A program made the translations under genes and the position numbers. A stretch of DNA of 64,000 nt, taken from Micromonospora sp. CPCC 205371 (lineage in GTDB: Bacteria; Actinomycetota; Actinomycetes; Mycobacteriales; Micromonosporaceae). Under the pieces are notes generated by a model. That model worked only from the letters and a program-made list of their open reading frames with translations. It searched no databases and had not been told where the DNA came from. The stretch covers positions 33,637-97,636 of the forward strand of contig NZ_JAIBNX010000005.1 of assembly GCF_026130045.1 (NCBI RefSeq). Reading direction: 5' to 3'. Position 1 is the first letter of the stretch. Every line of letters begins with the position of its first letter. Positions 23,760 through 55,364 of the stretch are shown here, piece after piece.

Positions 23760-24236
23760 CTATCGGATGTGAAGTTGATAGGCAGCGCGGTCCTTGCCTG
23801 GGCCCTTGAAGTCTTTGATCACGGATACCCCGTCGATGGCGTAGTCACCGGTGACGTTACGGAAGCCGAGCGATTCCCAGGCGGCTCGGGCGGCGAGGTT
23901 GTCCGGTTCGGAGGTGAGATAGATCCGGTCGCAGCCCCACTCTCGCGCCCGATCGTGTAGATGGGCTACCAAGGTACGTGCGATGCCTTGCTTGCGGTGC
24001 GCCGGGTCAGTCATGACGTCCTGAATGTACACATCATCGGGGTTGTCCTGGCTACGGAAGGCGATGATCGCGCCGGCCACCTTGCCGTCGATGAGCGCTA
24101 CTGGGCAGGTGGATGAGAACAGGCTGGCGTACAGCCAGTAGTCCGATTCGGTTCGGACCCGAATGTACGGGCTTCCAAGTTCCATTAGGCGCATTACTTG
24201 TGGGATCATCTCCACGCTGAACGTCGCTACGATCAT
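23760..24236 (-). CDS. GNAT-family N-acetyltransferase
   Basis: The 158-residue protein has a complete GNAT fold. VALIDGKVAGAIIAF is beta-4. VYIQDVMTDPAHRKQGIARTL carries the acetyl-CoA pyrophosphate loop (Q/R-x-x-G-x-A, here RKQGIA), followed by HDRAREWGCDRIYLTSEPDN and ARAAWESLGFRNVTGDYAI. The target is unknown. ATG 24236 overlaps the stop of the large STAND gene (ATGA), so the two are made together. That tight pairing suggests the acetyltransferase acts on, or downstream of, the STAND protein; this is inference. A strong hairpin lies beyond its stop. Confidence 0.85.
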   Translation of the reverse strand: MIVATFSVEMIPQVMRLMELGSPYIRVRTESDYWLYASLFSSTCPVALIDGKVAGAIIAFRSQDNPDDVYIQDVMTDPAHRKQGIARTLVAHLHDRAREWGCDRIYLTSEPDNLAARAAWESLGFRNVTGDYAIDGVSVIKDFKGPGKDRAAYQLHIR

Positions 24237-33445: not shown

Positions 33446-33964
33446 ATGATCACGACAGGTATTGCCACCCTCGTGGTGATCCGCGGCAACTCAGGCAGCG
33501 GCAAGACCACCACGGCGCGCGAGGTACGCCGAGACTACGGCCGCGGATGCGCCCTGCTCGAGCAGGACTACCTCCGGCGGATCATGCTGCGCGAGCACGA
33601 CAGCCGCCGGACCAATCCGGTCGCGCCGGCAGCCTTCATCGCCACCACCACACGGACCGCCCTAGACCTCGGATACCACGTGGCGCTCGAGGCGATCCTG
33701 CACAGCGACCGATACGGCGCGGTCCTGCACCAGCTCATCGATGCGCACACCGGTCCAACGCACACCTCCTACCTCGACGTATCATTCAATGAAACTGTCC
33801 GTCGTCACCGCGGCCGCGCTGATTCGATCGATTTCACGCCAGAACAAGTGCGCGAATGGTACGCGTACAAGGGTAGGCGCTCACCTAGTTGCTCCAGTCG
33901 TCGCTCGTCGTCCGCCAGGACCTCGCAGGGCCGTGCCGTCGACCGTGCCGACGATCGACCGTGA
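33446..33964 (+). CDS. P-loop kinase-like protein with abnormal C-terminus
   Basis: From ATG 33446 the 172-residue product has a clear P-loop, TLVVIRGNSGSGKTTTAREV, then CALLEQDYLRRIMLRE and ALDLGYHVALEAIL followed by HTSYLDVSFNETVRRHRGR. This resembles small AAA/zeta-toxin-like or nucleoside kinases of actinobacteria. After FTPEQVREWYAYKGR the sequence becomes Ser/Arg-rich with poor coding bias. Relatives continue with a lid helix and a last beta strand, so the C-terminus looks truncated or shifted. It may not be active. Its substrate cannot be told. Confidence 0.6.
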   Translation: MITTGIATLVVIRGNSGSGKTTTAREVRRDYGRGCALLEQDYLRRIMLREHDSRRTNPVAPAAFIATTTRTALDLGYHVALEAILHSDRYGAVLHQLIDAHTGPTHTSYLDVSFNETVRRHRGRADSIDFTPEQVREWYAYKGRRSPSCSSRRSSSARTSQGRAVDRADDRP

Positions 33965-34776: not shown

Positions 34777-37038
34777 TCAGCTCAAGTCCAGTACCTCACT
34801 CATGCGTTCGAGGACGGCCGGCCAGAGGGCGGGAGCGAGGCCCGCGCGCAGCTGGTCGGCGAGGTCGACGGCGAACGCGTCGATGGCTGTTTGAGCCGGC
34901 GAACGGTGTGTTGACAGCTTTTCGTTGCCGGACGGTGGTCGTTCCCGGGCCGGCGGCGTGTCGGCGAGGTTTTCCGGTTGGGCCGTGTGATCAGGAGGAG
35001 TCGTGATCTGCACGTGAGGGTTCAGTTGCCCTGACGGGTGGCTGTTGGCGGCGTTCGCTGGCAGGGGGACGTGCGCACCCACGGCGAGGACGTGTAGGTA
35101 CCGGGTTGGCCTGGTAAACGCGACGTACAGCAGGCGATGCCCCTTGTCGTCCTCGTCGAGGATGTACTCCGGTTCGACGACGATCACGGCGTCGAACTCA
35201 AGCCCCTTCGCTTCCTGAGGGCTGACCAGGTTGATCCCTCGTCCCAGGTCACCGCCAGCGGCCGCGGCGTACCACTGGATGTCCTGGTCCCGGAGCTCTG
35301 CTTCGATTTCCTCCCTGCACCGGCCCGGACAGATGATCCCTACGGAACGGCCTTTGGCGGCGTGACTGGTGGCCGCCTCGATCGCGGCGCGGGCCCGGTC
35401 GGTGTCGCTGACCCTCTCCAAGGCGGGTGCTGAAGGTCCGTCCCTAACGATCGTGGGCGCCTCGATTGTAGGGGCCGCGACCGCCAGCAGCGGCGCTGCC
35501 AGCTCAAAGATCTGCCTTGGTACCCGGTACCCGTACTTCAGGGTTTCGATGGTCTGCGGAAGCTCTGAGGGCAAATGGGCGAGCACGTCGTCCCAGTCGT
35601 CGCGCGCCCACGGGCCTGTCGACTGGGCGATGTCGCCGACGACGGTCAGCGAGCCGTTGGCCGAGCGTCGAGACACCGCTCGCAGTTGCATGGGCGAGAA
35701 GTCCTGCGCTTCGTCGACGACGATATGGGCGTACTGCTCGCCCACGCCGTTGATGAGGTCTTCCAACTCGTCCAGCAGCAGGAGGTCCGACTGGGACCAC
35801 ACTTCATCGGCGATGCGTTCGGCGGGTCGGCGATACAGAGCGGCGATATCCCGTGCGGTGAAGTCATCGCCGGCCGCCGCTATGAGCCGTTCCCGAGACC
35901 CGAGTAGGTCGCGTAGCAGTGCGGGAGCGGTGAAGCTGGGCCAGATTCGTTCAAGGAGAGGTTCGACAAGGCTGCGAACCTGCTGTGGCGACGTTTCCAG
36001 CTGTTCCGCGACGTGGTCGGTGAGAAGCCCGCGAAATATCTGTCGGCGTTCGGCGAAGGTCCCGAGGCTGGCCTTGGATTTGGCGATCATCTGCTGCAGG
36101 TTCGTGGATGTCAGCGTCAAGGGACGTCCAGCTACGGAGGTCTGCAACGGTCGATCGGGCGGGAGCGAGCCGATCCTGGCGTAGAGGGCCCTTCGCAGAA
36201 GGCCGGCCATCCTCGCCTCGCCCTTCAGCTTGGTCAGGTCCGCGGCTTCTACGCGACCCTGTTTCACCGGTGGGTGAAGCTGGCCGATGGCCCGCTGCTC
36301 GATACCCGTGTCGCCGAGCGACGGCAGGACGGTGCGGGTGTACCGGGTGAAGGTGGTTGACGGGCCGACGATGAGAACGTCCGCGGACGATAGGTCTGCC
36401 CGGTTGTCATAAAGCAGCCACGACACCCGGTGGAGCGCCACGGCGGTTTTCCCCGTACCCGCACCCCCCTGGATGACGAGGAGCTGCTGCATCGGCGCCC
36501 GGATCAGCTCGTACTGTGCGGCTTGAATGGTCCGGACGATCTCCTGCATCGCGCCGGTGCGGTCCCGGTTGAGGTCCGCCAGGAGGGCGTCATCGGGCAC
36601 GTCGCCGGCTTCGAGTTCGGCGACCGAGGTGGACAGCTCCGAGAAGAGAATGTCGTCGAAGCTGACGATCTGGTTACCAGTACAAACGAAGGTTCGCTTT
36701 CGCCGGAGACCGCGGGAATCCTTGTGTGTCGCCTCATAGAAGGGTGCCGCCGCCGGCGCCTTCCAGTTCACGACCAGAGTCGTGCGATGTTCGTCGCGTA
36801 TGCCATGGTGGCCGATGTACAGCGTCTCGCCGTCATCATCATCCATCCGGCCGAATGCCACCGGATCGTCCGGCTCGCCGAGCTGCGCGATCAGCTTGTC
36901 AGTTTCGCGCCGTATCCGAACGGCGGTCCCGCTGTTCACCGCCGCACCCGGCGCCGACGCTAACGTCGCTCGCATCCGTTCGCGCTCGACAGCAGCTGCC
37001 TCGAAGTACCGTTGCTCAAGCCGAAGTTCCTCGGTCAA
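34777..37038 (-). CDS. HelD/HelR-type superfamily 1 helicase
   Basis: The 753-residue protein has the HelD layout: an N-terminal coiled coil (LRLEQRYFEAAAVERERMRATL) that in relatives reaches into RNA polymerase, then FGRMDDDDGETLYIGHHGI. Walker A is LLVIQGGAGTGKTAVALHRV near residue 193, Walker B is HIVVDEAQDFSPMQLRAV near 444, and the late helicase motifs are NLVSPQEAKGLEFDAVIVV and LLYVAFTRPTRYLHVLA. HelD proteins strip stalled RNA polymerase from DNA, and actinobacterial HelR gives rifamycin tolerance. Here it is the last gene of a defence-like operon, 12 bases after a kinase gene, which is not its usual setting. Confidence 0.85.
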   Translation of the reverse strand: MTEELRLEQRYFEAAAVERERMRATLASAPGAAVNSGTAVRIRRETDKLIAQLGEPDDPVAFGRMDDDDGETLYIGHHGIRDEHRTTLVVNWKAPAAAPFYEATHKDSRGLRRKRTFVCTGNQIVSFDDILFSELSTSVAELEAGDVPDDALLADLNRDRTGAMQEIVRTIQAAQYELIRAPMQQLLVIQGGAGTGKTAVALHRVSWLLYDNRADLSSADVLIVGPSTTFTRYTRTVLPSLGDTGIEQRAIGQLHPPVKQGRVEAADLTKLKGEARMAGLLRRALYARIGSLPPDRPLQTSVAGRPLTLTSTNLQQMIAKSKASLGTFAERRQIFRGLLTDHVAEQLETSPQQVRSLVEPLLERIWPSFTAPALLRDLLGSRERLIAAAGDDFTARDIAALYRRPAERIADEVWSQSDLLLLDELEDLINGVGEQYAHIVVDEAQDFSPMQLRAVSRRSANGSLTVVGDIAQSTGPWARDDWDDVLAHLPSELPQTIETLKYGYRVPRQIFELAAPLLAVAAPTIEAPTIVRDGPSAPALERVSDTDRARAAIEAATSHAAKGRSVGIICPGRCREEIEAELRDQDIQWYAAAAGGDLGRGINLVSPQEAKGLEFDAVIVVEPEYILDEDDKGHRLLYVAFTRPTRYLHVLAVGAHVPLPANAANSHPSGQLNPHVQITTPPDHTAQPENLADTPPARERPPSGNEKLSTHRSPAQTAIDAFAVDLADQLRAGLAPALWPAVLERMSEVLDLS

Positions 37039-37050
37039 CCATGCTCCTCG

Positions 37051-37995
37051 TTACAGAGATGCCGACGGTCGCGGCGCGGGCTGAGGCAGCGGACCGAGCG
37101 GCCGCCGGCAGGGCGCGGTGGGATCGTGGCCTTGTCCGTCTGTCTCGATGTCCATAGTGGCCAATGGCAGCATGGCCTCGTATACCTGCGCGGCCGATCG
37201 CGGCCGCCGGTCGGGGTTCTTGGCCATCAGCGAGGCGATCAGCCGCGCCAGGTCATCGGGCGCATCGGGCCGATGATCGACGACCGAAGGTATCGGGTCG
37301 TACAGGTGCCGGTGCACGATGGCCACCGGACTGTCCGCCGGGTACGGCGGCGATCCGGTCAGCGTCTCGAAGAGGACGCAGCCGAGCGCGTAGAGGTCGG
37401 CGCGCGGTCCGACCGTCTCGTTCTGCACCTGCTCGGGTGCGATGTATGCCGGCGTGCCCAGGGTCTGGCCGCTCGCCGTTAGCCGCGAGATCTCGGCCGA
37501 CTCCAACAGCGCCGCCACTCCGAAGTCGAGCACCTTCACCTGACCGGCCGGGGTCACCATAATGTTCTGCGGCTTGAGGTCACGGTGTACCAGCGACGCG
37601 GCGTGCGCGGTGGCTAGCACCGAGCAGACCTGGGCGCCGATAGCGGCTGCCCAGGGCACGGGGAGCTGCACGCGCTCGGCGATCAGGTCGGCCAGCACGA
37701 TGCCGGGGACGAGCTGCATCACCACGTACACGTTCCGGTCGTAGGAGCCGACGTCGTGGATCGTCGGCACGCCAGGGTGATCGAGTCGGGCGGTGACCCG
37801 CGCCTCCCGCATGAAGCGCTTGACCGCGACCTCCCGCTCGTCGTCGGCCAGGAGTTCGCGCCGGAGGAACTTGACGGCGACCGACCGCTCAAGGTTGGCG
37901 TCGTAGCCCGCCCATACCTCGCCCATGCCGCCCCGGGCGATCGGATATGTCAGCTCGTACCTATCGCCGATCCGTGCCCCCGCCTGCACCGCCAC
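37051..37995 (-). CDS. Soluble Ser/Thr protein kinase (downstream copy)
   Basis: GTG 37995 is preceded by GGGA. The 314-residue protein is almost only a kinase domain: glycine loop IARGGMGEVWAGYD, Lys in RSVAVKFLR, catalytic loop VHRDLKPQNIMV, DFG in VLDFGVAALL, and activation end GTPAYIAPEQ. The tail is Pro-rich and short, with no membrane helix and no sensor domain, unlike PknB. It lies 27 bases after the RelE-UvrD gene and 12 bases before HelD. Together with the kinase at the other end of the operon it suggests phosphorylation controls the helicase/methylase proteins, as PglW does in Pgl. Confidence 0.9.
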   Translation of the reverse strand: MAVQAGARIGDRYELTYPIARGGMGEVWAGYDANLERSVAVKFLRRELLADDEREVAVKRFMREARVTARLDHPGVPTIHDVGSYDRNVYVVMQLVPGIVLADLIAERVQLPVPWAAAIGAQVCSVLATAHAASLVHRDLKPQNIMVTPAGQVKVLDFGVAALLESAEISRLTASGQTLGTPAYIAPEQVQNETVGPRADLYALGCVLFETLTGSPPYPADSPVAIVHRHLYDPIPSVVDHRPDAPDDLARLIASLMAKNPDRRPRSAAQVYEAMLPLATMDIETDGQGHDPTAPCRRPLGPLPQPAPRPSASL

Positions 37996-38022
37996 CTGCT
38001 TCCCACGTTGGTGTGGAAACCG

Positions 38023-40197
38023 TCAGCCGCCATCTTGCTGTACAAGGCGGGCAGTCAGGAACGGGCTGGGGTTGCCGTGCCAATAAACCGACAGTTCATC
38101 GCGGGCACGGGTCGCGGCGACGAAGAGCAGCGATCGGTCTCGCTGGCGTTCACGCTGGTACCGCTTGGGGTCGCTGGCACGGAACCGGCTGATCATCTGT
38201 CGTGGCACCAGACCGTCGCTCACGCCAGCGATGATCATGCGCTGGTACTCCAGGCCCTTGAAGCGGTGCATCGTGCCGACGTGCACGCCATCAGCGCTCT
38301 TCGGCCCGTCCGGTCCGATCTCCACCACCGGTATGCCATCGGCCGCGAGTCGGGCGGTGAGATCGGCTGCCATCTCGCGGGTCGGCACACAGATGGCCAC
38401 CGACCCGTCAGATGGGTTGCCCCACGCGCGCAGCTGGTCCGCGACCAGATCGCGCTCCTTGGCGGCGGTGGGTGCACCGCGGAAGGTCGGCCGGTTGCCG
38501 CGCAGCAGGGACCGGTAGCCGGCCAAATTCTCTTCACCGCCGTCCAGGTCGTCGTACGTCTCGCCGCTCATGATCTCCAAGGCGGCGGCGAGGATCTCCC
38601 TGGTTGTGCGGTAGCTGAGGGTGAGCCGGGAGGAACGACCGCGGATGTTGATGCCTAGGCTGCCCAAGGTGACGTGGTTATCGTAGATCCGCTGGTGTGT
38701 GTCGCCGACGATGAACATGTCATCGGATCCGGATGCGACCATCGCGCGCAGCATTTTCCAGTGGGCGGCGCTGAGGTCCTGGGCTTCGTCGACGACAACG
38801 TGCCTGTACCGGTGGCGCAGGAATCCGCCGCTGCTCTCGTCCGCTGACGGCACGCTTCGAGCGGCGCGGTCCATCTCCAGCCGCGCGGCGCGTTCCGCGA
38901 CCTGGCGCCAGGTCCAGATGCCTTGGCCGTCGAGCCAGGTGGTGAACCGTTCGGTGAGCTGCCAGACATCGTCGCGCTCGATGCGGCTGAGGCTGCGGCC
39001 GCGGCCGGGCCGGCGGGCCCGGAAATAGTCGGTACGGGAGTTGAGAACCTGCCCGAGGATCACCTGCGTCCACTCCGCTGCCAGAAACTCGGCGTCCCAA
39101 CCGGACTCACCGGTCTCCACCAGGAAGTTGTGCCATAACTCAGGCACCTTGTTGTCGTCGACGACACGTTTGCCGGCACCAGCCTTAGCCTCGGCCACAA
39201 CCCGGCTGGCCAGCCGGTCCACGTTGACGATGTCGACGCGTGAGACGAGTTCCTGGCCACCGAGTGCAACAAGCCGCGTACGCAGGTCGGCGGCCAGGTT
39301 CCGATTGAACGTGGTGAGCAAGATCGGCTTGTCCACCCCGGCGGGCAGGCGCCTTGCTAGGTGTGCGACGCGGTGCAGGGCCACGATCGTCTTACCGGTG
39401 CCGGGTCCACCGCCTGCTCGGGCCGGACCGCTGTAGTTGCGCTCGACGAGTTTTCGCTGCGTCGGGTGCAGGAAGACCTGCCACCGCTCGAACGACTCGC
39501 CCAGCATGGCTTGCAGCGCTTCGTCGTCGGAGGAAACCTGCGTAGCCGGACGATGTACCGCAGCCGCGAAGTCTTCAGTGTCGACCGGCTCATCAACCCG
39601 AACCGGGTTGGTGACCTGCTCGAACACCTCCTCGTACGACTTGCCGTCGAAGAGCGCGAAAAGCACGTCGGTGGTGAGCTGGGGCGCACGGTCGAGCAGT
39701 TCGAGCAGGTCCGCCTCGGTCGTCAACGCGCGGATCTGCTCCAACAACGGCTCAGCGACACCGAGCTCAACCAGCTGCGCGTCTGTGTACGCGGCGAAGA
39801 GCGGCTTCGGCGAAGGCTGCGGCACCGGCGGCAGCACGCGCCCGACGATGCTGTCCCCGACCGGAGCGAGGTCGACCACCTCGATGCCGCCGGTGACCCG
39901 GTTGACGCGGTAGGCGTACCGGTCGAGGTTGTCGTAGACCGCACTGCGGTGTTCCACAGCGACCAGCAGGTAGTCGCGATCGGCGATGTGCAGCAGCAGG
40001 GCGCGGTAGTCGCGGTTGACCCGCGCGGACATCAGACGGGATTCGCTATTGAGGGCCTTGAGATTCAGGCCAGGGCTATCCGGGTTGTGCCGGAACTTGT
40101 GCATGAACTCGTACACCGCGCCGATGTCGGCACGGGAAAGCTTCATGATCTCTTTGTCTGCGCGGTCGAGCATCCGCAGTGTGGCCCCGGTGTTCAT
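38023..40197 (-). CDS. UvrD-like helicase with an N-terminal RelE-like toxin-fold domain
   Basis: The 724-residue protein starts at ATG 40197, overlapping the stop of the giant helicase (ATGA). Residues ~1-105 look like a RelE/ParE fold: LDRADKEIMKLSRADIGAVY, SRLMSARVNRDYRALLLHIA, YLLVAVEHRSAVYDNL, matching the Arg-x-x-DYR...GHR..VY pattern of RelE-type toxins. The helicase follows: Walker A AGGGPGTGKTIVALHRV near 267, DEAQD in HVVVDEAQDLSAAHWKML near 472, GDTHQRIYDNHVTL, and VGTMHRFKGLEYQRMIIAG. The toxin fold may bind ribosomes or RNA; whether it cleaves is unknown. This gene occupies the place where the nuclease DrmC would be in DISARM. Confidence 0.82.
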   Translation of the reverse strand: MNTGATLRMLDRADKEIMKLSRADIGAVYEFMHKFRHNPDSPGLNLKALNSESRLMSARVNRDYRALLLHIADRDYLLVAVEHRSAVYDNLDRYAYRVNRVTGGIEVVDLAPVGDSIVGRVLPPVPQPSPKPLFAAYTDAQLVELGVAEPLLEQIRALTTEADLLELLDRAPQLTTDVLFALFDGKSYEEVFEQVTNPVRVDEPVDTEDFAAAVHRPATQVSSDDEALQAMLGESFERWQVFLHPTQRKLVERNYSGPARAGGGPGTGKTIVALHRVAHLARRLPAGVDKPILLTTFNRNLAADLRTRLVALGGQELVSRVDIVNVDRLASRVVAEAKAGAGKRVVDDNKVPELWHNFLVETGESGWDAEFLAAEWTQVILGQVLNSRTDYFRARRPGRGRSLSRIERDDVWQLTERFTTWLDGQGIWTWRQVAERAARLEMDRAARSVPSADESSGGFLRHRYRHVVVDEAQDLSAAHWKMLRAMVASGSDDMFIVGDTHQRIYDNHVTLGSLGINIRGRSSRLTLSYRTTREILAAALEIMSGETYDDLDGGEENLAGYRSLLRGNRPTFRGAPTAAKERDLVADQLRAWGNPSDGSVAICVPTREMAADLTARLAADGIPVVEIGPDGPKSADGVHVGTMHRFKGLEYQRMIIAGVSDGLVPRQMISRFRASDPKRYQRERQRDRSLLFVAATRARDELSVYWHGNPSPFLTARLVQQDGG

Positions 40198-43100
40198 CGA
40201 TGTCCTCCCGCACCCGTGGTGGCGAGCTCAGCGGTCAGCTCTTCGACCGTCCACTCTCTGGCCGTGCGTACATGCCAACCAAGATCCGCGTAGGCTCGGT
40301 CACGATCAGCTGTCTCCGGATCGTCGGGCGAGCCCGCGAGCACAATAGCGATGCGGTGCTCGGGCCAGGCCAGCTCGGCCGGCCACGCCTGATCGCCGAG
40401 CTCGTAGCCGACCACGGGTGGCGGGGCTCCGCGCCGCACCAGGCTGCGCACGAGCGTCTCCAATGCGGACTCCTCCCTGTCCATGTACTGCAGCACCAGC
40501 TGCCACGGCGAGTCGCTGGCCATCTCGGCCTGTTCCGCAAGCACCTGCTCAGGTCCGGCGCCGAGCCATGAAGCGGTCTCTTCGTCCAGCGGCAGCCGCA
40601 CCCCAACGAGGCCGGTGCCTTCAGCAACGGCCAGCACCACCGGGTCGAACAAGTCCACAGTAGAAAGTGATAGTTGCCCACCGTCACCGCCCGCGCCGTT
40701 CAGGAACTGGACGATGTTTCCCCACCTCAACCAGGCCATCCAGCGCTCACGGTGGCCGTCACCGGCCACCGCTGCCGGCGTGTCGTTGGCGGCCGTCAGC
40801 GCCGACCAGGCCCCGGGCGGTGTGCGGGCGGCGGCCCCCCTTGTCCCGGGGCCAGCTGCCCGGGCCCCCGCCCGGAACAGCGCGATCTTTCCGGGTATGG
40901 CAGCCGGCAGCGGCTCCCCGCGGACCAAGGCGAGAATGCGCTCACAGACGCCGCCCGAGTCGGTCGCCGTCTTCTCCTGAGCCTGCTTGAGCAGGCCGGC
41001 AAGGGTCGCCTCGGCGCGGCTTCGCCACCGCGTCGGGTCTGGGCTGGCAAGGAAGCTCATCAGCAGGTCGACGGGGTTGGTCCAGACGTACCGCTCGAGG
41101 TCCGTAGGGTCGGCACCGCTTGCGGTCTGCCGGTACACCTCCCGCGCGGCGCGCTGGGCCTCACCGCCATACGGCATCCACCGTCCGGCGTCTCCGCTGT
41201 CCCAGGTGTCGACGTCATCCCAGGAGAGGGCAAAGACGTGGTAACCGTGGGCGCGCAGCCTGGCGCGCTTCTCCGCATCATCAGCCAGCCGATTGTACTG
41301 CGCCGATGCGTGATACTTGAAACCATCCAGATAGACCGCCACATCCGGCGAAGACGCATCGAGCCTGGTGAAATGCACATCGGGCCGGGTGCCGCGGATG
41401 GTGTTTTGCAGTCTCATCTGCCAATGCGTCACGTCCCGGCCATTCGGGGCGACAAACCGCAGGTCCGCGACGCGGGCGCCGTTCTGGTCCGTGCGCTTCT
41501 CGATCCGCAGACCAGACTGGGGCAGGCCGGCGCGCGCCATCAGCTTGTTGAGGAAACGCATCTCCAGCTCGCTCTCCACCTGGTGGATGAGCGAGATCTC
41601 ATCAGTACGGGTGCCTTCCTGGACCTGCCAGCCATCCAGCAGTCGGTTGAGCATCGCGACCGCCTCGTCCCGGCTCATCAGCGGGAACTCCTCATCGCGG
41701 GCGTACCGGAGAAGGCAGCGATGGCACGCGGGTCGGCCCTCATGCTGGCAAACGCAGCTGGCGATCAGCTGACGCGCCTGTTGCAGGATGCCGCGGAACT
41801 CCTCCGGCCGCGCCAGCCGGTGCAGGTAGCCGGTGCCTTGCGGCTGGATGTCGTAGACGACGACGAAATGACGGGTGCCGCCGCTCTGGCCGTCAGGCAT
41901 GGTGGCGCTGACAATCCGCAGGTGTGCCGGGTCTCCGCCGTACTCGGCGGCTATGCCAAGCCGGATAGCGGCGGCGAACGACGTCACCCGTTCCTGGACC
42001 ACTGCCGTGACCGCGGGGATGAGGATGCGCAGTGACTCGGTCTGCAGCTCGTGCGCGAGGATGAGATCGACATGGTTGTCGACGCCCGCCGACCGGCGGT
42101 AAGGACACCACGGCCGATGGTGCTCCGCGCCGGGCAGCACCGCCGAGCCGGACGCCTGCGCGGCAAGCTGCAGACCGGTCGCGGCAACACCGTCCACTGT
42201 GGTGCCGCCGCACGATACGCAGGTGTGGAACGTGTTGATCCGCACCTCTTCGCCCGCGAACGGCTCCGGGGCGCGGTCAAACCGCGCAGCGCCGAGGTTG
42301 AAGTGCCGGATCATCGCTTGCCGGGTGTAGTCCACCCCGAAGGTGTCACGGCTGTGCCGCCATGACGACTCGACCCGGTCGGGATCCACGTCGACCGCGA
42401 CCGTGGTGGCGTAATAGCGGCGTTCCCGGTCGTCGCTATCGTCGCGGATACGGGCGTCGTCACGCTTATCCCGGGACAGCACCCGCGTAGGCCGAAGCAC
42501 GGTGAACAGCCGGCCGTGGTCGGCGATGCCCTTGTCGTGGCAGCGCGGGCACGGTGTCGTGTCTTCGCGCGCCAGGTGGGTGCGCACGTACCCACACTGG
42601 GCGCAGACCCGCCACATCTGGTACGCAGGCCGGTCGACCGGGCCAATGTCCAGGCCGGAAATTTCATGCTGGTAGCCACGCACGTAGTACGTGTTGCCTG
42701 GTGCGATCTCCACCAGCGCTTGGCGGGCCGGCCGCTCGTACTCACGCAGTTCACTGTGGAATCGGCGGCTGCCGTCCGGCGCCTGCTCCTCCCAGGTGAG
42801 GGTGGCTTCGAGTAGCGTACGCGTGTCGATCAGCGCGTAGTTGGGAAGCAGACCCAACTCGACGAGCGTCGCATGCGCGGCAGCAGAGCCGATCTCGCTG
42901 AGCCGCCGCCGCACCGCCCGCGCCTCCGAGCGCAGGACCCGCAACTCCCGGGCGTGGTCGGGGTCGGCCGCGACCAACGAACTGGCCGCCTGATCGATCG
43001 CCTTCAACCGGTGCCGCAGATCGGCCAGGCGACTCTCCCACGCCTCCTCGGCCTCCTTGACACGGGCGACGATGCCGGTGTCGGCGAACTCCCGCAGCTG

Positions 43101-46607: not shown

Positions 46608-49600
46608 GAGGGTTGCCAGCCCGCGTCGATGGCGTCTTGCAGGCGCTTGCTGAAGACGGCGTGCGCCTGACGGTACTCGTTCTCCCGGTCCGCCTTGTAG
46701 AACGGCGGCGTGTACCCGTCGGGCGGTGGATTCCCCTTGGGATCATGCAAATGCGCCATCAACTGCTGGTAAGTTTCCTTGGTCTGCTTCCACCCAAATG
46801 CGCTGCGATGCTCGGCGATCTTTTCTCCGCGAGCGTCGAACCAGGTCAGTGCCTCGTATCGAACCAACTGCGGAAAACGGCTTTTGTACAGCGCAGTGAG
46901 CTGGCTCGCATCGATTCCGAGCCACACCGACACCAGCGCGTCCAGCTCAACGAGCGCCGCACGGCGCGCCCGCTCGTCGCGGAGTGGCGTGCTCATTCCC
47001 CATGCCCCCCGTAACTGGCCAGAACCTGAACGGTTCAGAGCGTTGAGCCCGTCCCACTCGCAAGCCCACGACTCGCCTATCCAACTAGGCTCGAACAGCC
47101 GATACCAGAGGTCTGCATAGACTTCCGTCAGGCAATTGAGCCGTAGAATGCGAAGCAGTGCTGGCACGGCAAGTGGGTGATTCCCCGAGCCAGCCGGCAT
47201 CATCCTAGCCTCGGCCTTCTTGAAGTTACTCAGGCCTGTTATACGCAGAAAGTAGTCCAGCGGGAGGGCTGCCCAGAAGGCAGCGGCGAGAACCGTATCG
47301 ACTTCTCGCCGCATCGCCAACGAATGGACGCCGTCAATATGCATCGTTCCTGGCGGGATGATCGCGGCGAACAGTGACCTCTCCGTGTTGTACGGGACCA
47401 TAGTACGCCAGGCAAGTCGGTAGGATTCGGTATAAGGTCGCCCATCCCACAGGTCCTGCGCAGCCGTAAACCGTTCTGGTGTACACGCACGCACGTAATC
47501 GGTGGCGGGCACTCCGTCGGCGGCGAGCGCCGTAATGTCGATGAGCGGATCATAGGTTCCTGTGTTTGGAGGCTGTTTTGCAAACGGCGTGGCGACGCCG
47601 ATTTGCGGCCCGCGCAGGATGACGCCATCCCACCGCGATGGCCGGTCTAGCGCCCGGCGTATGACCCCGTCCTTGACGCTCTTGCCCTCGTTAAAGCCAG
47701 AGCTGATTCGCGGACCGAGCATTCCCAGCCGCCTGGGAACCGTAGTGAGAGCCGCGATCGCACCTTCCTCGACCACGCTAACTGGGAACAATAGCGGCGT
47801 CCGTTCCATGGGCTCGTCGACCTCGGTTCGCAAGCGCTGCCAGGTGGCCAGCCGTGCTCGGTCAACCTTGACCGCTCTCGACGAATGTGGGCGTAGGTCC
47901 CACGCCCCGTTATGCTTGATCGACGGCGCCTCGCCGGACCCATCGTGCGTAAGCGATTCCACCACAACCGTCGGATCGAAGAGCCAACTGAGGTGGAGGA
48001 ACGAGATCTCCTGTGAGCGGCCATAGATGTTCACGGAGTACTGGCGGTTCCAGTCAATATCTGGGAACAGCAGACGCCGATTCTGGAAATGCGCGTGAAG
48101 GCGGAGGTGGTGGTAGGCAGCTGCTCGCAACGGACCCTCACGGCCGCCGCTAAAATGACTGTCTGGGTGGATCAGACCGGCCGTGCCGGTCTCGGCGAGG
48201 TGATCCCACACTCGACACATGAACGCCCGGTACAGATCCAACTGAGTGCCCGCGAGCAGCGGATATGCTACGGCACCGCCGAGACTGGCACCCAGTCCCG
48301 CATTCGCAGCCAACTCGCCAAGCACGTAAGCGCGTGGCCACGGCTCCGTCATCAGCGCCGCTTGCCGCTTCTGCCGGATGCCGACCGACGTCTCGGCCGC
48401 CAGCTGGAACCACGGGTCGCACTCCGCAAGTACAACGTCCTCTTTCCAGTCGGGCCGTACCCAAGGTGGGTTTCCTACTTGGAGGTCGAAGCCGCCCTTG
48501 GAAAACGCCTGCGCGAACGTCAGCTCCCAATGGAAGAAACCCTGCTGTTCGGCGACGCCCTCAGCTGCTTGGAGCCAGGGGAAGCGGTCCGCGAGTCGGT
48601 AGGCCGCGTCCATGCCCATCAGGCCGGGCAGGACGTCCTCGTAGTCCTCCAGTTCGGACAGTGATGAGAAGTCGCTGATCAGGGACCCGGCGGGGATGTC
48701 TGAGCGGCCGATCAGTGCCTCGGCGAAGGCGAGCCAATCGTCCAGGTCCGCCAGCGGCACCTGCTTCCGAAGCTGCTCGGCCACCGTGTACTGGCGCGTG
48801 CCGGTCGGCTTGGTGGGGAGCTTGAGTTGCTGCGGAGCCACCTCCCCGAAGAGATCCTGCAACTCGAAGCTCACCGGCTCGTCGTACACGGGCATGTCTT
48901 TGACGTGGGTGACCTCGACGGGCCCGGCGGGGTACACGGGGTCTGAGCCATCGAGCAGGCCGACCTTGTCCAGCGGCCAGAACCACAGCGCGCACCACAC
49001 ATCCATCAGCGTCTTGAGCCGCCAGTACGGCGTGCCGGGCGTGGTGAGGTCGGCGAGGATCTTCTCGCGCGGCACCGCCTGCCTTACCGGCGGCAGGTCG
49101 TCGGCGCCCCAGACCTTGATGTCGCGTCGAATCTCATCTTCGGATATCTCCAGCCGCTGGCGCACGAGCTGCCACAGGTACTCGACGCGTCCGGCGAGGG
49201 CCTGGAGTCGGGCCACCTGGGACGGCTCCTTGCGCTTGCCCTTGGCCGATGGTGGCTTCCGGATCGCGCTGCGCCACTTCTTTAGCCGCTCGGTTTCGGT
49301 GGGCGCGAGTTCGCGGGCCTCCTTCTCCCCCGCGACCGCACCCCAGCCGTCTGCTGGCAGGAGGAAGTGGTGGATGGTGCCGGGCTCGATCTCGCCGTCG
49401 CGGAACGGCTTGTCCTCGGGGGCGGTGGTGAGCCAGGACTTGTCGGCGAGTTGCTCGGGCTTGTAGAGGCGCCGGGCGCCGCCGATGAGCGAGTTTCCGC
49501 GTCGCAGGTGTAGACCGAACCACGGTGCTTGCAGGCCGGGGTGCATGACGTTGAGCCACAGCGACACCTCGGCCAGTTCGACGGCGGTGCGGTTGAGGTC

Positions 49601-51517
49601 GACGCCGTAGCAGTTGTGTAGGGCGATGTATGCCTTTACGCGTTGGAGTTCGAGGTGGTACTCCTCCGGGTCGAGCTCGACCTCCAGTTCGCGGGCTTGG
49701 CGGCGGAGGTATTCGGCGGCTACCTGGTTGATGGCCTCGTTGAGGAACGCGCCGGAGCCGAGCGCCGGCTCGCAGATCGTCCAGTCCAGCAGCTCGCGGG
49801 CTGGTGTCACGGTGCCGTCCTGGTCCAGCCGGTACTTCAGGGCGAGCTGGACGGTGACCTCGGTCAGTGACTGGGGTGTGTAGTAGGAGGCGCTGGTCTG
49901 CCGGTCGCGGCCCGCGAGCCGGTAGACGAACTGGCCGGGGTCGTAGGTGACCCGGCTGCGTACGCCGGTGTACGGGTTCTCCTTGTAGACGAATACGTTG
50001 TCGTCATACTCCTCCACTTTGGAGGCTGGGATCATCCAGGAGCCGTCTTTGGCGTCGCCATTCTTGGCCACCTCGTAGAGTTGTTCGGTGGCGACGAAGC
50101 CGGTGTAGGACATCAGTCCCTCGTAGACCGCGCCGAGCTGGTTGATGCCCAGTTGGGCGTACGAGATGAAGCCGCCGCGCCCCTTCTTGGTGCCCTTGCT
50201 GAGCATCAGGCGGCGCAGCACCTGGTAAAGGGTCTTGTTCCGGAGCCGGGTGTCGAGCTTCGGCGCGTCGGGGTCGTCGGGGTCGCTGCCCGGCCGTGGG
50301 ATCTGCCATCCGATCAGCTTGGTCTTCTCGGGGAGGAAGAGGTCGGAGCGCAGCGGTTCGAAGCGGAGGCCGACGTCTTCGCTGTCCTTCTCCCCCGCCG
50401 TCTGGCCGGCGCGCGGCCGGTGACCGTCGTTCACCATTCGGAAGAGCAGGTCGAGCGACTCGTACAGGTGAAATCCGCCTTCGGCGGTCGGTGCCAGCCG
50501 CCGGTAGATCAGGTCGCCCAGGCGGGCGAGGCTGTAGCCCTCGACGTACTCGGGGTCGTTGACCGGCAGGACGCCCAGCTCCGGCCGTGCCTCGGCGTAG
50601 AGGAGGAAGAGGATCCGGTACAGGTACCGCAGCGCCTCCCGGCCCAGTTCCTTGGCGAGATCGTCCAGTTCCATGATCTCCTGCGGCTGGTGGCCGGCCT
50701 GCCGGATGCGGTCCAGCACCTCGTTGGCGATCAGCTCGACGGATACGCGCAGCCCTTCGCGTAGCTCGCTAGAGACGCCGACCGCGTGCTGCCGGGAGCC
50801 GGCGACCAGGTCGGCCAGCGGCTCGGTGCCGCCTTCTGCCGGCGGACGAAGCGAGTCGGCGCCGAAGAGCGCCGCGATGACGTCTAGTTCCTTGTCGTTG
50901 TTGCGGCCGTAAGCGATGTCGAGGCTGACCGCGAGGTAGCGCCCTTCACCCCAGACGCTGCGGTCGGCGAGTGTGATCACGCCACCGCTGAGAATGAGGA
51001 TGTACCGGGGCGGCTGCTCAGCGGCGAACAGCCAGGATGCCAGCTTGGCTCCGGTATCGATCACGGTGCCGTCGGCGAGGGTGACGGGGTCGAGAAGGGG
51101 GCCGGCGCCGGCCGGCTCCCGGGCGGCGGCGGTGTGCGCGGCCTCCCCCCAGGCCCGCCCGATGCTGCCGTGACCGGTGTTCTGCTCGGCGGGGGCGACC
51201 GGGATCTGGTGCTCGTGTCCGGCCCGTTCGATGGTGCGGACCTGTGGTTGCGGGTCGAAGCCGAGCCGCCGGAGGATTTCGCCATGCACCTTGCGGAGCC
51301 GTTCGGGGTCGTAGAGCTCCAGGTCGGCCAGCTCGGTTTTGGCGTTGAAGTAGTCCCGGCGCCAGCCGCGCAGCCCTGCCCGCGGAGTGAGCCGGCCACC
51401 CTTCTCATCTTCGGCCCACTGTTTGAACAAACCGCCCTTGAGTGTGGCCGGGAGCACCTCGGCGAGATAGTGCGCGGAGAGGTACTCGCCCCGGTTGGTC
51501 AATGATTCGAAACTCAT
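46604..51517 (-). CDS. Very large Eco57I-type adenine methyltransferase
   Basis: The 1637-residue protein has the N6-adenine methyltransferase motifs in gamma order: SASYYTPQSLTEVTVQLALK, motif I ICEPALGSGAFLNEAI near 585, CYGVDLNRTAVELAEVSLWL, and motif IV DLQVGNPPWVRPDWKED near 1015. About 430 residues separate motifs I and IV, much more than in simple methylases. A ~500-residue N-terminal region and a ~500-residue C-terminal region may bind DNA and other subunits. No clear nuclease motif was seen. Methylases of this size and neighbourhood resemble DrmMI of class 1 DISARM and PglX of BREX. It probably marks host DNA so that the helicases ignore it. It overlaps both neighbours by ATGA. Confidence 0.87.
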   Translation of the reverse strand: MSFESLTNRGEYLSAHYLAEVLPATLKGGLFKQWAEDEKGGRLTPRAGLRGWRRDYFNAKTELADLELYDPERLRKVHGEILRRLGFDPQPQVRTIERAGHEHQIPVAPAEQNTGHGSIGRAWGEAAHTAAAREPAGAGPLLDPVTLADGTVIDTGAKLASWLFAAEQPPRYILILSGGVITLADRSVWGEGRYLAVSLDIAYGRNNDKELDVIAALFGADSLRPPAEGGTEPLADLVAGSRQHAVGVSSELREGLRVSVELIANEVLDRIRQAGHQPQEIMELDDLAKELGREALRYLYRILFLLYAEARPELGVLPVNDPEYVEGYSLARLGDLIYRRLAPTAEGGFHLYESLDLLFRMVNDGHRPRAGQTAGEKDSEDVGLRFEPLRSDLFLPEKTKLIGWQIPRPGSDPDDPDAPKLDTRLRNKTLYQVLRRLMLSKGTKKGRGGFISYAQLGINQLGAVYEGLMSYTGFVATEQLYEVAKNGDAKDGSWMIPASKVEEYDDNVFVYKENPYTGVRSRVTYDPGQFVYRLAGRDRQTSASYYTPQSLTEVTVQLALKYRLDQDGTVTPARELLDWTICEPALGSGAFLNEAINQVAAEYLRRQARELEVELDPEEYHLELQRVKAYIALHNCYGVDLNRTAVELAEVSLWLNVMHPGLQAPWFGLHLRRGNSLIGGARRLYKPEQLADKSWLTTAPEDKPFRDGEIEPGTIHHFLLPADGWGAVAGEKEARELAPTETERLKKWRSAIRKPPSAKGKRKEPSQVARLQALAGRVEYLWQLVRQRLEISEDEIRRDIKVWGADDLPPVRQAVPREKILADLTTPGTPYWRLKTLMDVWCALWFWPLDKVGLLDGSDPVYPAGPVEVTHVKDMPVYDEPVSFELQDLFGEVAPQQLKLPTKPTGTRQYTVAEQLRKQVPLADLDDWLAFAEALIGRSDIPAGSLISDFSSLSELEDYEDVLPGLMGMDAAYRLADRFPWLQAAEGVAEQQGFFHWELTFAQAFSKGGFDLQVGNPPWVRPDWKEDVVLAECDPWFQLAAETSVGIRQKRQAALMTEPWPRAYVLGELAANAGLGASLGGAVAYPLLAGTQLDLYRAFMCRVWDHLAETGTAGLIHPDSHFSGGREGPLRAAAYHHLRLHAHFQNRRLLFPDIDWNRQYSVNIYGRSQEISFLHLSWLFDPTVVVESLTHDGSGEAPSIKHNGAWDLRPHSSRAVKVDRARLATWQRLRTEVDEPMERTPLLFPVSVVEEGAIAALTTVPRRLGMLGPRISSGFNEGKSVKDGVIRRALDRPSRWDGVILRGPQIGVATPFAKQPPNTGTYDPLIDITALAADGVPATDYVRACTPERFTAAQDLWDGRPYTESYRLAWRTMVPYNTERSLFAAIIPPGTMHIDGVHSLAMRREVDTVLAAAFWAALPLDYFLRITGLSNFKKAEARMMPAGSGNHPLAVPALLRILRLNCLTEVYADLWYRLFEPSWIGESWACEWDGLNALNRSGSGQLRGAWGMSTPLRDERARRAALVELDALVSVWLGIDASQLTALYKSRFPQLVRYEALTWFDARGEKIAEHRSAFGWKQTKETYQQLMAHLHDPKGNPPPDGYTPPFYKADRENEYRQAHAVFSKRLQDAIDAGWQPS

Positions 51518-54303
51518 GCGGCGTTCTCCGAAGGCGTGACGAGGACGGCGAGCACCCGCAACAAGGGCGTGCCTGAGGTCTCCAGACGATTCAGGAGGTC
51601 GTTCTGCTCGTCCACTGTGGCGTGAACTCGCCTACGGCGCGGGGCAGACAGCTCGTCGAGGAGACTGGCTTGTTCGAAGTGGACAAGGCGTTCGCGGTAC
51701 CGGCGCAGCGGCTCGGCGTTCGCCTCGGCCCACTCGTCGCGCTTCGCGGCGAGATGGTCGCGGGCCGCTGCGACAGCTACCGGCACCAGCTCCTGCACCG
51801 GACCGAGTTGGATCGGCGTGGCCCGGTTGACCATGGCTGGTCCGACGCCGGCGGCGACGAGCGCCTCGTCCATCGATGCGATGACCGACTGGTCCGGCAG
51901 ACCGGAGACGGCCATCCACTCGACCACGGTGGGCTGGCCAAGGCGGTTTCCGTACACGCCCTGGATCAGGAAGACTGGACCGTCCACATCGGCCTCCAGG
52001 ACCGGCGCTTGCTGGCGGCCCAGGCGGATGAGCACCTTGTCCACGAGCCAATCGATCATCGGGTGCACATCGCTCAGGAAGGCGATGTCCGGCCATACAG
52101 CCGCTTCGGCCTTGCGGGCGTCGTCAAGCTTCCGCTGCGCCAGCTTGCGGTCGAGGGTGACCCGTAGCCGCAGCTTGTCACGCTCCTCGTGCGCCTTGAG
52201 GTAGGAGCGCGGCAGATCCAGCAATCGCTGCACCAGATCGTCGGGCGCGAGGAACGTGATCAGCTCGTCCTCCCGACGCAGGTCGATGCGGTCTTCGGGC
52301 CTGTCGTCGTACAGCTCACGCAGCGCCACGTCGACGAAATCGCCGGTGGAGTCGAAAAGCTTGGGTACCCGCGCCTTCGGCACCTCGGCCGCCGCCGGAG
52401 CTTCGCCCACCGCCGCCATGAGGTCCGCGAGTACGTCGTATTCCGCCGCACCACTGGCGTACGACTCGTCCACGGTCTTGCCGGCGAGCAGGTCCTTGAC
52501 CAGGCGGTCCTCTTCCACCTTGGCGTCGTACATACCGGTGACGGCCTCGACGCTGCCGAGGCTGCGGTGGGCGACCTCCTCGCGTTCGAGCAGTTTCTCC
52601 GCGACGGTCCGGTCGTCCTTCGCATCCGGCACCTTCGAGGTGAGGATGAGCGCCCGGAACTGCGGCTGATGGCGCTGGCCGTAGCGGTCGACGCGGCCGT
52701 TGCGCTGTTCGATGCGGATCAGGCTCCAGGGAATGTCGTAGTGGATCAGGTGGTGGCACTGCTGATGCAGGTTGACGCCCTCGGACGCGACGTCACCGGT
52801 GAAAAGCAGCCGCACGGGGCTGCCTTCCGACTCGAACTCCTGCAGTACGGTCTGCTCGTCCTTGTCGGCCAGGCCGCCGTGCAGCACCCGCACGGCGGCA
52901 CTGCCGAGGCCGAGCCGTCCGGGCACCACCGTGGCGAGCCACTTGAGCGTTGGTACGCGTTCGGAGAACACCACCGCTCGTGTCGCGCTGCCCGGCTTGA
53001 CGCCGATCTCCTTGAGCTCGGTCACCAGGCGTTCGAGCTTGGCGGAGTCGTTATCGGACATGGCGGAGGACAGTTCGGCCAGGCGAGCCAGCGCGGCGTC
53101 TTCGGCGCCGGTGGCCTTCTTGCGGCGTTCGGCCACCGTCGCGGCCAGCGCAACGTGCGAGGACAGGAAGGACTTCAGCAGCGTGTACGGGAACAGCCGA
53201 TCCATGCCTCTTAACGGCTGGTCGCTCCACTTGCCAGCGAGCCACACCTCCGTCAACTCCGAGAAGATACGCTCCTCAGCGTCGGTAGCCACACAGTGCA
53301 GCGGCTGCGACGGTCCGCGGTCGGCCCAGCGGTCGCCGATCTGGTCGCGTACCTCCGGGCTTATCTTCGTCCGGCGCAGGTACAGGTGGGCGATGTCCTT
53401 GGCTTCGTAGTTCTTGGGATCGGCGATCGCGGCCGGGTCGAGCAACGAGATCAGCTCGGCGAACGACTCCTTGTCACCGTTGTGCGGAGTGGCGCTGGCC
53501 AGCAGGAGCGCGTCGGTCCGGATGGCCAGACGACGGGCCAACTCGTTGCGCTGGGTGCCCTTGTTGATCAAGTTGTGGGATTCGTCGATGACGACGACGT
53601 CCCAGTCGATCGCGTCCAGGTGGTGCCCGAACTGCCCGGCGTCCTTGAGGGTGTCGACCGAGATGATAGCCCGCTTGAAGTACGTGAACGGGTTGCGACC
53701 GGCCGGGATCTCCTGCTGGATGCGCTGGATGCCGGTCGAGTCCAGCCGCACGAGCGGGATCGCGAAGCGGGTCCACAGCTCCCGTTGGAACTGCTCCAGC
53801 ACCTGCTGCGGGGAGACCACCAGGATCCGGTCGCCGCGGCCGCGCCGGATCAGCTCGGCAAGGATCAGTCCGATCTCCAGCGTCTTGCCCAGCCCGACCA
53901 CGTCGGCGAGCAGGATTCGCGGGCGCAGCCCAGACAGCGCCAGCTCGACCGGCCGCTGCTGGTAGGTCAGCGGGTCGAGAAGGAACCGGTCGGATAGCGC
54001 CAGGCCGCGCTCCGAGCGGGGCAGCGGGGTGCGTCGCAGGACCGCCTCCAGGAAGAGCCGGCTGATCCGAAACCGCGGTGAGGTGTCCTGTACGAGGATG
54101 GTGTCTTCGGGCCGCATCGCGCGGACCTCGTCCAGGCCGGTGAAGAACGTCGCTTCCACGTCCTGGACGAACTCGGACACGCCGACGGCCTTGACCATGA
54201 CGCCGTCGTGGAGCGTCGGCTTGGCGGTGCGGACCAGCCACTCCTCGTCGCGGACCTCGATTCGGGTGCCGGGCGCGAACGAGCCCGACTCCACAGTGGT
54301 CAT
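51514..54303 (-). CDS. SNF2-family helicase (DrmD-like)
   Basis: ATG 54303 overlaps the kinase stop (ATGA) and begins MTTVESGSFAPGTRIEVRDE; an upstream ATG at 54369 lies inside the kinase gene and is rejected. The 929-residue protein has a short DNA-binding-like N-terminus and then the SNF2 core: YQQRPVELALSGLRPRILLA, Walker A DVVGLGKTLEIGLILAEL near 137, DESH in VVVIDESHNLINKGTQRNEL near 239, and helicase-C GDVASEGVNLHQQCHHLIHY with RIEQRNGRVDRYGQRHQ near 540. Its place directly before a giant Eco57I methylase is that of drmD before drmMI in class 1 DISARM. It lacks a nuclease motif. Confidence 0.88.
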   Translation of the reverse strand: MTTVESGSFAPGTRIEVRDEEWLVRTAKPTLHDGVMVKAVGVSEFVQDVEATFFTGLDEVRAMRPEDTILVQDTSPRFRISRLFLEAVLRRTPLPRSERGLALSDRFLLDPLTYQQRPVELALSGLRPRILLADVVGLGKTLEIGLILAELIRRGRGDRILVVSPQQVLEQFQRELWTRFAIPLVRLDSTGIQRIQQEIPAGRNPFTYFKRAIISVDTLKDAGQFGHHLDAIDWDVVVIDESHNLINKGTQRNELARRLAIRTDALLLASATPHNGDKESFAELISLLDPAAIADPKNYEAKDIAHLYLRRTKISPEVRDQIGDRWADRGPSQPLHCVATDAEERIFSELTEVWLAGKWSDQPLRGMDRLFPYTLLKSFLSSHVALAATVAERRKKATGAEDAALARLAELSSAMSDNDSAKLERLVTELKEIGVKPGSATRAVVFSERVPTLKWLATVVPGRLGLGSAAVRVLHGGLADKDEQTVLQEFESEGSPVRLLFTGDVASEGVNLHQQCHHLIHYDIPWSLIRIEQRNGRVDRYGQRHQPQFRALILTSKVPDAKDDRTVAEKLLEREEVAHRSLGSVEAVTGMYDAKVEEDRLVKDLLAGKTVDESYASGAAEYDVLADLMAAVGEAPAAAEVPKARVPKLFDSTGDFVDVALRELYDDRPEDRIDLRREDELITFLAPDDLVQRLLDLPRSYLKAHEERDKLRLRVTLDRKLAQRKLDDARKAEAAVWPDIAFLSDVHPMIDWLVDKVLIRLGRQQAPVLEADVDGPVFLIQGVYGNRLGQPTVVEWMAVSGLPDQSVIASMDEALVAAGVGPAMVNRATPIQLGPVQELVPVAVAAARDHLAAKRDEWAEANAEPLRRYRERLVHFEQASLLDELSAPRRRRVHATVDEQNDLLNRLETSGTPLLRVLAVLVTPSENAA

Positions 54304-55364
54304 CGGTGGGACCCCTCCTCCAATGTGGGCCTGCGAGCGTATTGGCGGCGCATCTTCTCGATCAGCCACCCGACATCCACCTGTGGCTCGGCGAGCGTCG
54401 GCGGCGCCGGTGTGTCGCTGCTCTCCGATCCGCCGAGGTCGACGTCTTCCGGATCCTGCTGCGGATCTTCGAGGTCCGGCGGGACGGTGAGTTCCATGCC
54501 GGGGTCGAAGGTCAGCTGGCTGACCTGGCGACGCCGGTCGAAGGCAGACACGCCGCCGGCGGTGGCCACCTCCAGCAGCCGGGCTCGGACCGCGTCCAGC
54601 GCGGGCCGGGCGGCCGGGTCGAACGCCAGCATCGCCCCGAGCAGCGGCGCCAGTTCGGCCGGCACGCCGGTCATGTTCGGCTGGTCATCCGGATCGGTGA
54701 TGCGCACCAGCAGCGCCCACGAGTTCGTCGACGGGTAGAGGCCGTGGCCGGTGAGTGCGAACACCAGCGTGGCGGCCAAGCCATAGATGTCGGCGGCCGA
54801 GGGCAGCTCGCGCTCGCTCTTCACCTGTTCGGGTGACATGTACGCCGGCGTACCCACGATGGCGCCTTGTTCGGTCAGGTAGCTGTCCCGGTCGCGTAGG
54901 ACTGCCAGACCGAAGTCGATCAATACCGGGCCGTCCGGGCCGAGGATGACGTTCTGCGGCTTGAGGTCCCGGTGCAGCAACCCGGCCTGGTGTACCTTTG
55001 CCAGCCCGTCGGCGAGCATCGCGCCGACCATGGCCGCGTGGGGCGCGGGCAATGGTCCTCGGGCGTCGACGTACTGCCGCATGTTGAGGCCAGGTATGTA
55101 CTCGACGGCGAGCCATGCTGGGTCGGCGGTGAGGTCGGCGTCTTCTAGCCGGGCGACCCGCGATCCGTACACCGTCTTGAGGTTTTCCACCTCCGCGGCG
55201 AATCGCTCCCGGACCGTCTGGTCGCTCACCAGGGGATGCTTGATGAGCTTGACGGCCACCCGGTCGGCGGTCGGCGACACGGCGAAGTAGACGTCTCCCA
55301 TGCCGCCCGAGCCGAGCGGTTTGACCAGCCTGTAACCCCCAACAGTGGTCAACTCCGGCGTCAT
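54300..55364 (-). CDS. Soluble Ser/Thr protein kinase (first gene of the helicase/methylase operon)
   Basis: ATG 55364 is preceded by GGGGAG five bases upstream, so it is preferred to the ATG at 55442, which adds an unstructured stretch. The 354-residue protein has the full kinase domain: PLGSGGMGDVYFAVS, Lys in RVAVKLIKHP, LLHRDLKPQNVILG, LIDFGLAVLRD and GTPAYMSPEQVKSER. A Pro/Asp/Glu-rich tail ends in VDVGWLIEKMRRQYARR. There is no membrane helix. Its stop overlaps the start of the SNF2 gene, so it is the entry gene of the chain. It may gate the system on infection or respond to a host signal; this is inference. Confidence 0.9.
   Translation of the reverse strand: MTPELTTVGGYRLVKPLGSGGMGDVYFAVSPTADRVAVKLIKHPLVSDQTVRERFAAEVENLKTVYGSRVARLEDADLTADPAWLAVEYIPGLNMRQYVDARGPLPAPHAAMVGAMLADGLAKVHQAGLLHRDLKPQNVILGPDGPVLIDFGLAVLRDRDSYLTEQGAIVGTPAYMSPEQVKSERELPSAADIYGLAATLVFALTGHGLYPSTNSWALLVRITDPDDQPNMTGVPAELAPLLGAMLAFDPAARPALDAVRARLLEVATAGGVSAFDRRRQVSQLTFDPGMELTVPPDLEDPQQDPEDVDLGGSESSDTPAPPTLAEPQVDVGWLIEKMRRQYARRPTLEEGSHR

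Follow-up and report, generated by a model that had tools for sequence, protein, structure and literature searches.

Does the run of helicase, methyltransferase and kinase genes in a 64,000-nucleotide stretch of Micromonospora sp. CPCC 205371 (contig NZ_JAIBNX010000005.1; hereafter the window) form a new mixture of defence parts, or a named system to which something has been added? We found that four genes of this operon are a complete ARMADA type II set, ArmA-ArmB-ArmC-ArmD, by the definition in the main text of Bell et al. 2025 (PMC12458937), and that they are preceded by a Ser/Thr protein kinase gene, here called K1, which accompanies armA throughout one actinobacterial clade. It is probable, in our assessment, that the operon is a chromosomal ARMADA II phage defence system in which K1 is an integral extra subunit, docked through its C-terminal tail and controlling the machinery by phosphorylation. 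The operon comprises eight co-directional genes, all on the - strand, with predicted gene starts:

55459..57378, - strand: MT, helix-turn-helix plus N6-adenine methyltransferase gene (HsdM / MADS2-like), 639 residues; Pfam N6_Mtase 120 bits, PADLOC MTase_I 347 bits and mad2 91 bits, mad1-like N-terminus
54300..55364, - strand: K1, Ser/Thr protein kinase, 354 residues; Pfam Pkinase 118 bits, with VAVK, HRDLKPQN and DFG present
54321..54368, - strand: C-terminal peptide of K1, WLIEKMRRQYARRPTL, a putative docking peptide; motif kept in most ARMADA K1s
51514..54303, - strand: ArmA, SNF2/RapA-type (BrxHII/DrmD-like) helicase, 929 residues; Pfam SNF2 and Helicase_C, NCBIfam DISARM_DrmD 304 bits (cut-off 610)
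46604..51517, - strand: ArmB, PglX-like adenine methyltransferase, 1637 residues; Pfam Eco57I, PADLOC REase_MTase_IIG 947 bits and DrmMI 166 bits, NPPW and GSG by eye
40194..46607, - strand: ArmC, YprA-family helicase with a C-terminal extension, 2137 residues; DEAD, Helicase_C and MZB, PADLOC DruE 300 bits
41208..41381, - strand: stretch of ArmC that may form a PD-(D/E)xK / Vsr-like nuclease; D, YLDG and H are invariant
38023..40197, - strand: ArmD, RelE-like domain fused to a GajB/UvrD helicase, 724 residues; UvrD domains, GajB 88 bits
39904..40197, - strand: predicted RelE-like domain of ArmD, residues 1-98; AlphaFold2 model and Foldseek
37051..37995, - strand: K2, second Ser/Thr kinase, 314 residues; Pkinase 159 bits
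34777..37038, - strand: HelD/HelR-like helicase, 753 residues; NCBIfam motor_HelR_2 334 bits (cut-off 1100)

The coordinates agree with the initial annotation, which had described seven genes from K1 to the HelD-like gene running in one direction, in this order and with almost no spacing, and the four ATGA overlaps that it placed between the kinase and the RelE-UvrD gene are all present (4 bases each at K1/ArmA, ArmA/ArmB, ArmB/ArmC and ArmC/ArmD). Its family labels (kinase, SNF2, Eco57I, DEAD-DUF1998, UvrD, kinase and HelD) were likewise supported by family searches, including the MrfA Zn-binding (MZB) match in the DUF1998 region of ArmC, and RelE was supported by a structural model. ArmD and K2 are separated by 27 bases and K2 and the HelD-like gene by 12 bases, and the MT gene lies 94 bases upstream of K1 in the same direction. 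Most of this gene order is repeated in dozens of genomes, and it is therefore far from a chance arrangement.

ARMADA was named in September 2025, and its authors carried out their phage tests in E. coli (PMC12458937). Type II is defined in the main text of that paper by a strict order of four genes, namely a BrxHII/RapA-like helicase, a PglX-like methylase, a YprA-like helicase and then a GajB-like helicase with an N-terminal RelE domain. We call the second to fifth genes of the operon, counted from K1, an ARMADA II core because both their family content and their order match this definition: ArmA, ArmB and ArmC follow one another on one strand, and the fourth gene encodes a GajB-like helicase with a RelE-like N-terminus, as indicated by GajB/UvrD matches and by its predicted fold. 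The main text also reports that E. coli ARMADA II blocks phages without abortive infection and that the ATPase and methyltransferase motifs (Walker A/B, NPPW) are required (PMC12458937); by eye, we found GLGKT/DESH in ArmA, GSGKT/DEFH in ArmC, GTGKT/DEAQ in ArmD and NPPW in ArmB. Gene by gene, the core is 30–36% identical to an E. coli plasmid locus in which these four genes have the same layout (34% between ArmA and the armA product of this ARMADA II-type locus, and 31% between the ArmC proteins over residues 1-1799). The AlphaFold2 model of ArmD residues 1-230 had RelE, YafQ and RelBE2 as its top Foldseek matches in the PDB (best E 6.7e-5) and also matched YoeB toxins, which supports a RelE fold for the modelled N-terminus. 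The YprA helicase of ARMADA II is described with a C-terminal Vsr-type nuclease. In ArmC, the C-terminal region holds an invariant D...YLDG...H pattern, and 2 of 21 ArmC relatives matched the Pfam nuclease MTES_1575 (best E 7.6e-6); a fold search and a PDB profile search of this region returned nothing significant, and the region is at most a candidate Vsr-like nuclease. The initial annotation knew of no named system with this exact set, and PADLOC 2023 indeed names only fragments of it (DrmD, type IIG, DruE, GajB and PD-T4-6); the naming of ARMADA has made that statement outdated. The two kinases, which had been thought to replace other parts, are instead added to a complete core.

To place K1 we used the window's ArmD as a query against 151 genomes at family level and 297 at class level, took the gene neighbourhoods of the matches and added plasmid records, so that the sample leans to relatives of this ArmD (it includes Dactylosporangium, L002, and the Streptomyces plasmids L155 and L190). 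A single scan of the genome contigs returned one locus. Within one actinobacterial ArmA clade, a kinase gene lies directly upstream of armA and on the same strand in 36 of the 36 loci with a readable armA upstream region, versus 0 of 10 loci outside that clade. In the ArmA tree (46 rows, the 36 kinase-bearing loci and the 10 others), the kinase-bearing loci form one side of a single branch (support 99/92), corresponding to one change, and none of 500 shuffles gave as low a number. The kinase-less rows are five relatives of the same family, G188, and loci of Tsukamurella, E. coli, Microvirga and Haematobacter; a kinase-motif scan upstream of armA in nine of them found none, including the 7.2 kb upstream of armA at the E. 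coli plasmid locus, and the Microvirga record holds only 437 upstream bases. When 23 other kinases of four host genomes are included, 31 of 32 K1s fall in one clade (96/91) and K2 forms a separate group. Catalytic motifs are retained in nearly all K1s. Furthermore, K1 and ArmA have diverged together (Mantel r of 0.89 between pairwise distances over the 36 loci, reached in 0 of 5000 permutations), a correlation that comes partly from the shared descent of the loci, as expected of an integral part.

Most K1s share a C-terminal tail of the form [hydrophobic]xx[hydrophobic]RxxYAxxxx[hydrophobic]-COOH, usually at the very end of the protein. The linker that joins it to the kinase domain is highly variable in length and sequence, with a mean identity of 14% versus 43% for the 14-residue tail. 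In the pattern search, all listed K1s except two (G120b and G135) carried the tail, which was found again in the further locus G409. No such motif was found near the C-terminus of 17 K2s or 23 other kinases, nor in the three closest K1-like kinases that do not stand beside arm genes (G391:C7, G260:C2 and G347:C144), and a stricter pattern run over 7447 open reading frames of the loci matched K1s only. The window's K1 extends six residues (EEGSHR) beyond the tail because its stop codon comes later than in close relatives, which end right after ...RxTL; it is this extension of the frame (54300-54320) that creates the ATGA overlap with armA, an overlap that is not general among the relatives. Judging by its sequence conservation, the tail may be a docking peptide. 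ArmD is a reasonable guess for its partner because two genomes, G117 and G071, keep MT, a tail-bearing K1, ArmD and K2 with no ArmA match anywhere in the genome.

Several observations weigh against K1 as an integral subunit of the whole machinery. The same two genomes suggest that K1 may serve ArmD, not the whole core. G120b has a tail-less K1 that does not group with the K1 clade, and variant tails occur in G135 (YLRTAYTK by eye) and G142. In G281, armA is far from the armD locus and has no K1; this armA is absent from the tree. Deeper members of the clade have up to ~280 bases between K1 and armA, and co-transcription is not certain there. In E. coli, ARMADA functions without a kinase, and K1 may accordingly be regulatory and not essential. 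Finally, the docking of K1, its substrate and the direction of its control, as well as defence by kinase-bearing ARMADA, are inferred.

These observations bear differently on the other explanations that we considered. K1 could be tied to the clade and still act alone without touching Arm proteins, either as an effector kinase or by regulating host targets in the way of Stk2 or the kinase-kinase-phosphatase modules. Other defence kinases do target host proteins (kinase-kinase-phosphatase, PMC11341870), and the kinase domains score best against the PADLOC PD-T4-6 and mad6 models; we nevertheless regard this as unlikely, given that the co-divergence with ArmA, the 36 of 36 linkage and the confinement of the tail to ARMADA-linked K1s point to a partner within the system. 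That two modules have merged, a small system of MT, K1, RelE-UvrD and K2 with an ArmA-B-C core, could explain why G117 and G071 hold only MT-K1-ArmD-K2 and have no genome ArmA match at E<=1e-60, and a methyltransferase or kinase also lies near other RelE-UvrD genes (G416, G001 and G069b). Most K1 loci, however, have K1 together with ArmA-D and no MT, and the K1s of G117 and G071 nest within the K1 clade, for which reason loss of ArmA-B-C is the simpler account. These two genomes are of one genus; we hold a merger to be rather improbable.

A chimera of DISARM and Druantia parts was suggested by the initial annotation, and the top PADLOC and NCBIfam labels (DrmD, DrmMI and DruE) do read that way. 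The relation stands to the extent that the SNF2 helicase and PglX-like methylase are DISARM class 1-like and the YprA helicase Druantia-like; these matches are all partial or under curated cut-offs, however, and the four genes jointly fit the ARMADA II order with RelE-UvrD, which makes a hybrid extremely improbable. We give equally little credence to the kinases being chance neighbours in a defence island. The window does look island-like (with a type ISP gene, an integrase and a zeta-toxin-like AAA protein), and the HelD-like gene has the appearance of such a neighbour; for K1, this explanation is contradicted by the 36 of 36 versus 0 of 10 linkage, by orthology and by co-divergence, whereas K2 may be such a neighbour in loci beyond the closest subclade.

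Under our preferred reading, an ARMADA II core with K1 as a built-in subunit, the ArmA-B-C-D proteins would distinguish the cell's own DNA from foreign DNA and stop phage DNA while the host survives, the non-abortive character being carried over from E. coli ARMADA, where it was shown by others. The operon would thereby serve phage defence in actinomycetes. K1 would be tethered to an ARMADA component, for which ArmD is our first guess, through a flexible linker that carries the short peptide at its end, and could activate or silence the machinery by phosphorylating it, a function similar to the one suggested for PglW of BREX type 2. MT and K2 would be optional in one subclade and the HelD-like gene a passenger. 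A more specific version, which we put forward tentatively as a kinase-licensed ARMADA, is that the K1 peptide recruits the kinase to ArmD or another subunit, that phosphorylation gates the nuclease/helicase or the RelE RNase, and that the peptide is a family-specific docking code; if true, this would give ARMADA a signalling layer that has not been described for it.

The remaining genes of the operon vary among the loci. MT, seen in 11 of 38 rows of K1 loci, occupies the equivalent position in L002, G126, G150, G144, G147, G020, G140, G143, G310a and G282, and K2 does so in the first six of these (L002, G126, G150, G144, G147 and G020; 60–66% identity). We rejected both as constant parts, their presence being limited to the closest subclade and a few others, in which they are optional add-ons. 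The HelD-like gene was rejected as a system part, with no match to it at any other compared locus, and is probably a passenger; it does not reach the HelD/HelR equivalog cut-offs (334/1100, 289/1051 and 265/750 bits) and is a family relative below them. The initial annotation of a seven-gene unit was right in reading a defence-type operon and in treating the kinases as an unusual part, wrong in including the HelD-like gene and incomplete in missing the upstream MT, which belongs to the operon in the closest subclade. Most of the seven-gene order is conserved, in dozens of genomes, and only HelD recurs in none; the suggestion that the genes might not co-occur elsewhere is contradicted by this recurrence.

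Other arrangements were observed among the relatives. Several loci have inserts of ~6 kb or more between armB and armC, a junction where nested defence cargo seems to accumulate and which in some relatives holds other defence genes (HEC-05, NsnA-B-C, HEC-01A and GmrSD/HEC-06-type) at the following loci:

L037:9139-11193 (G048): armB-armC cargo locus
L127:8398-11733 (G272): armB-armC cargo locus
L055:8095-9336 (G078): armB-armC cargo locus
L041:8145-10274 (G147): armB-armC cargo locus

The four-gene form MT-K1-ArmD-K2 with no ArmA match lies at L251:1015-7645 (G117) and at L049/L050 (G071). In G140 and G143 (L045-L048), armD is duplicated, with a copy on either side of K2, each ~72% identical to the window's ArmD. 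On a Tsukamurella tyrosinosolvens plasmid (L157:708-25170), UvrD, helicase and DUF1998 genes (a DISARM-like split helicase) lead co-directionally into ArmA-B-C-D, possibly a natural DISARM/ARMADA array.

In the window itself, a type ISP-like methylase/specificity gene (59239-62592; Type_ISP_C 260 bits; 1117 residues), possibly a truncated type ISP enzyme, adjoins the operon. A phage-type integrase (20306-22306) and a zeta-toxin-like AAA protein (33446-33964) lie near it, which fits a mobile defence island. At 24233-27346, in a lower-GC stretch, lies the gene for a protein of 1037 residues that has HEAT repeats and, at its C-terminus, an OMP-decarboxylase-like domain.

Among known systems, MADS shares closely spaced methyltransferase and kinase genes with the operon, and the mad2 and mad6 models were matched. 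We rejected membership, as the NCBIfam scores were 26 of 720 bits for MADS2 and 121–131 of 460 bits for MADS6; among the eight window proteins no other mad genes were found apart from the short mad1-like N-terminus. With Druantia, the likeness is that ArmC is nearest to DruE models; the alignment is partial, and membership was rejected with no Dru match among the eight proteins besides this DruE-like ArmC. The operon resembles DISARM class 1 in having a DrmD-like SNF2 helicase followed by a DrmMI-like, PglX-like methylase and a YprA-family helicase, and differs in that the helicase core and the DUF1998 region are in one protein and that the DrmD score is under its cut-off. The absence of DrmC noted in the initial annotation was confirmed, and DISARM class 1 membership was rejected with neither DrmB nor DrmC matched among the eight window proteins (PADLOC). 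BREX type 2 (Pgl) is likewise a defence system that unites a PglX-like methyltransferase and a helicase with a Ser/Thr kinase; for this kinase, PglW, a role as sensory hub has been suggested (PMC12839542). It differs in that PglW is a 1400–1600-residue NERD-kinase protein while K1 is a 350-residue kinase with a tail, and in that the parts list in PMC12839542 has no YprA helicase whereas ArmC is of the YprA family. No match to a PglZ or BrxC-like gene was found in the window operon, and membership was rejected on PglW scores of 41 and 75 bits versus a cut-off of 990. Kinase-kinase-phosphatase modules, which act on host proteins, provide a further precedent for defence kinases (PMC11341870).

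The closest likeness is to ARMADA type II, with four core genes in equal order, NPPW in ArmB, Walker motifs in ArmA, ArmC and ArmD, and RelE-UvrD as the fourth. The main text of PMC12458937 presents a four-gene unit and does not contain the word 'kinase' (its figures and supplementary tables lie outside this statement), whereas the clade of the window adds a constant K1 and optional MT and K2. With prior notice possible in those figures and tables, K1 would be a new ARMADA component relative to that text. As ARMADA was only recently named, a kinase in every sampled member of the clade, together with an ARMADA-specific tail, offers a concrete handle on its control, and if our reading is true, a common signalling layer would connect the kinase-bearing PglX-like defence systems Pgl, MADS and ARMADA.

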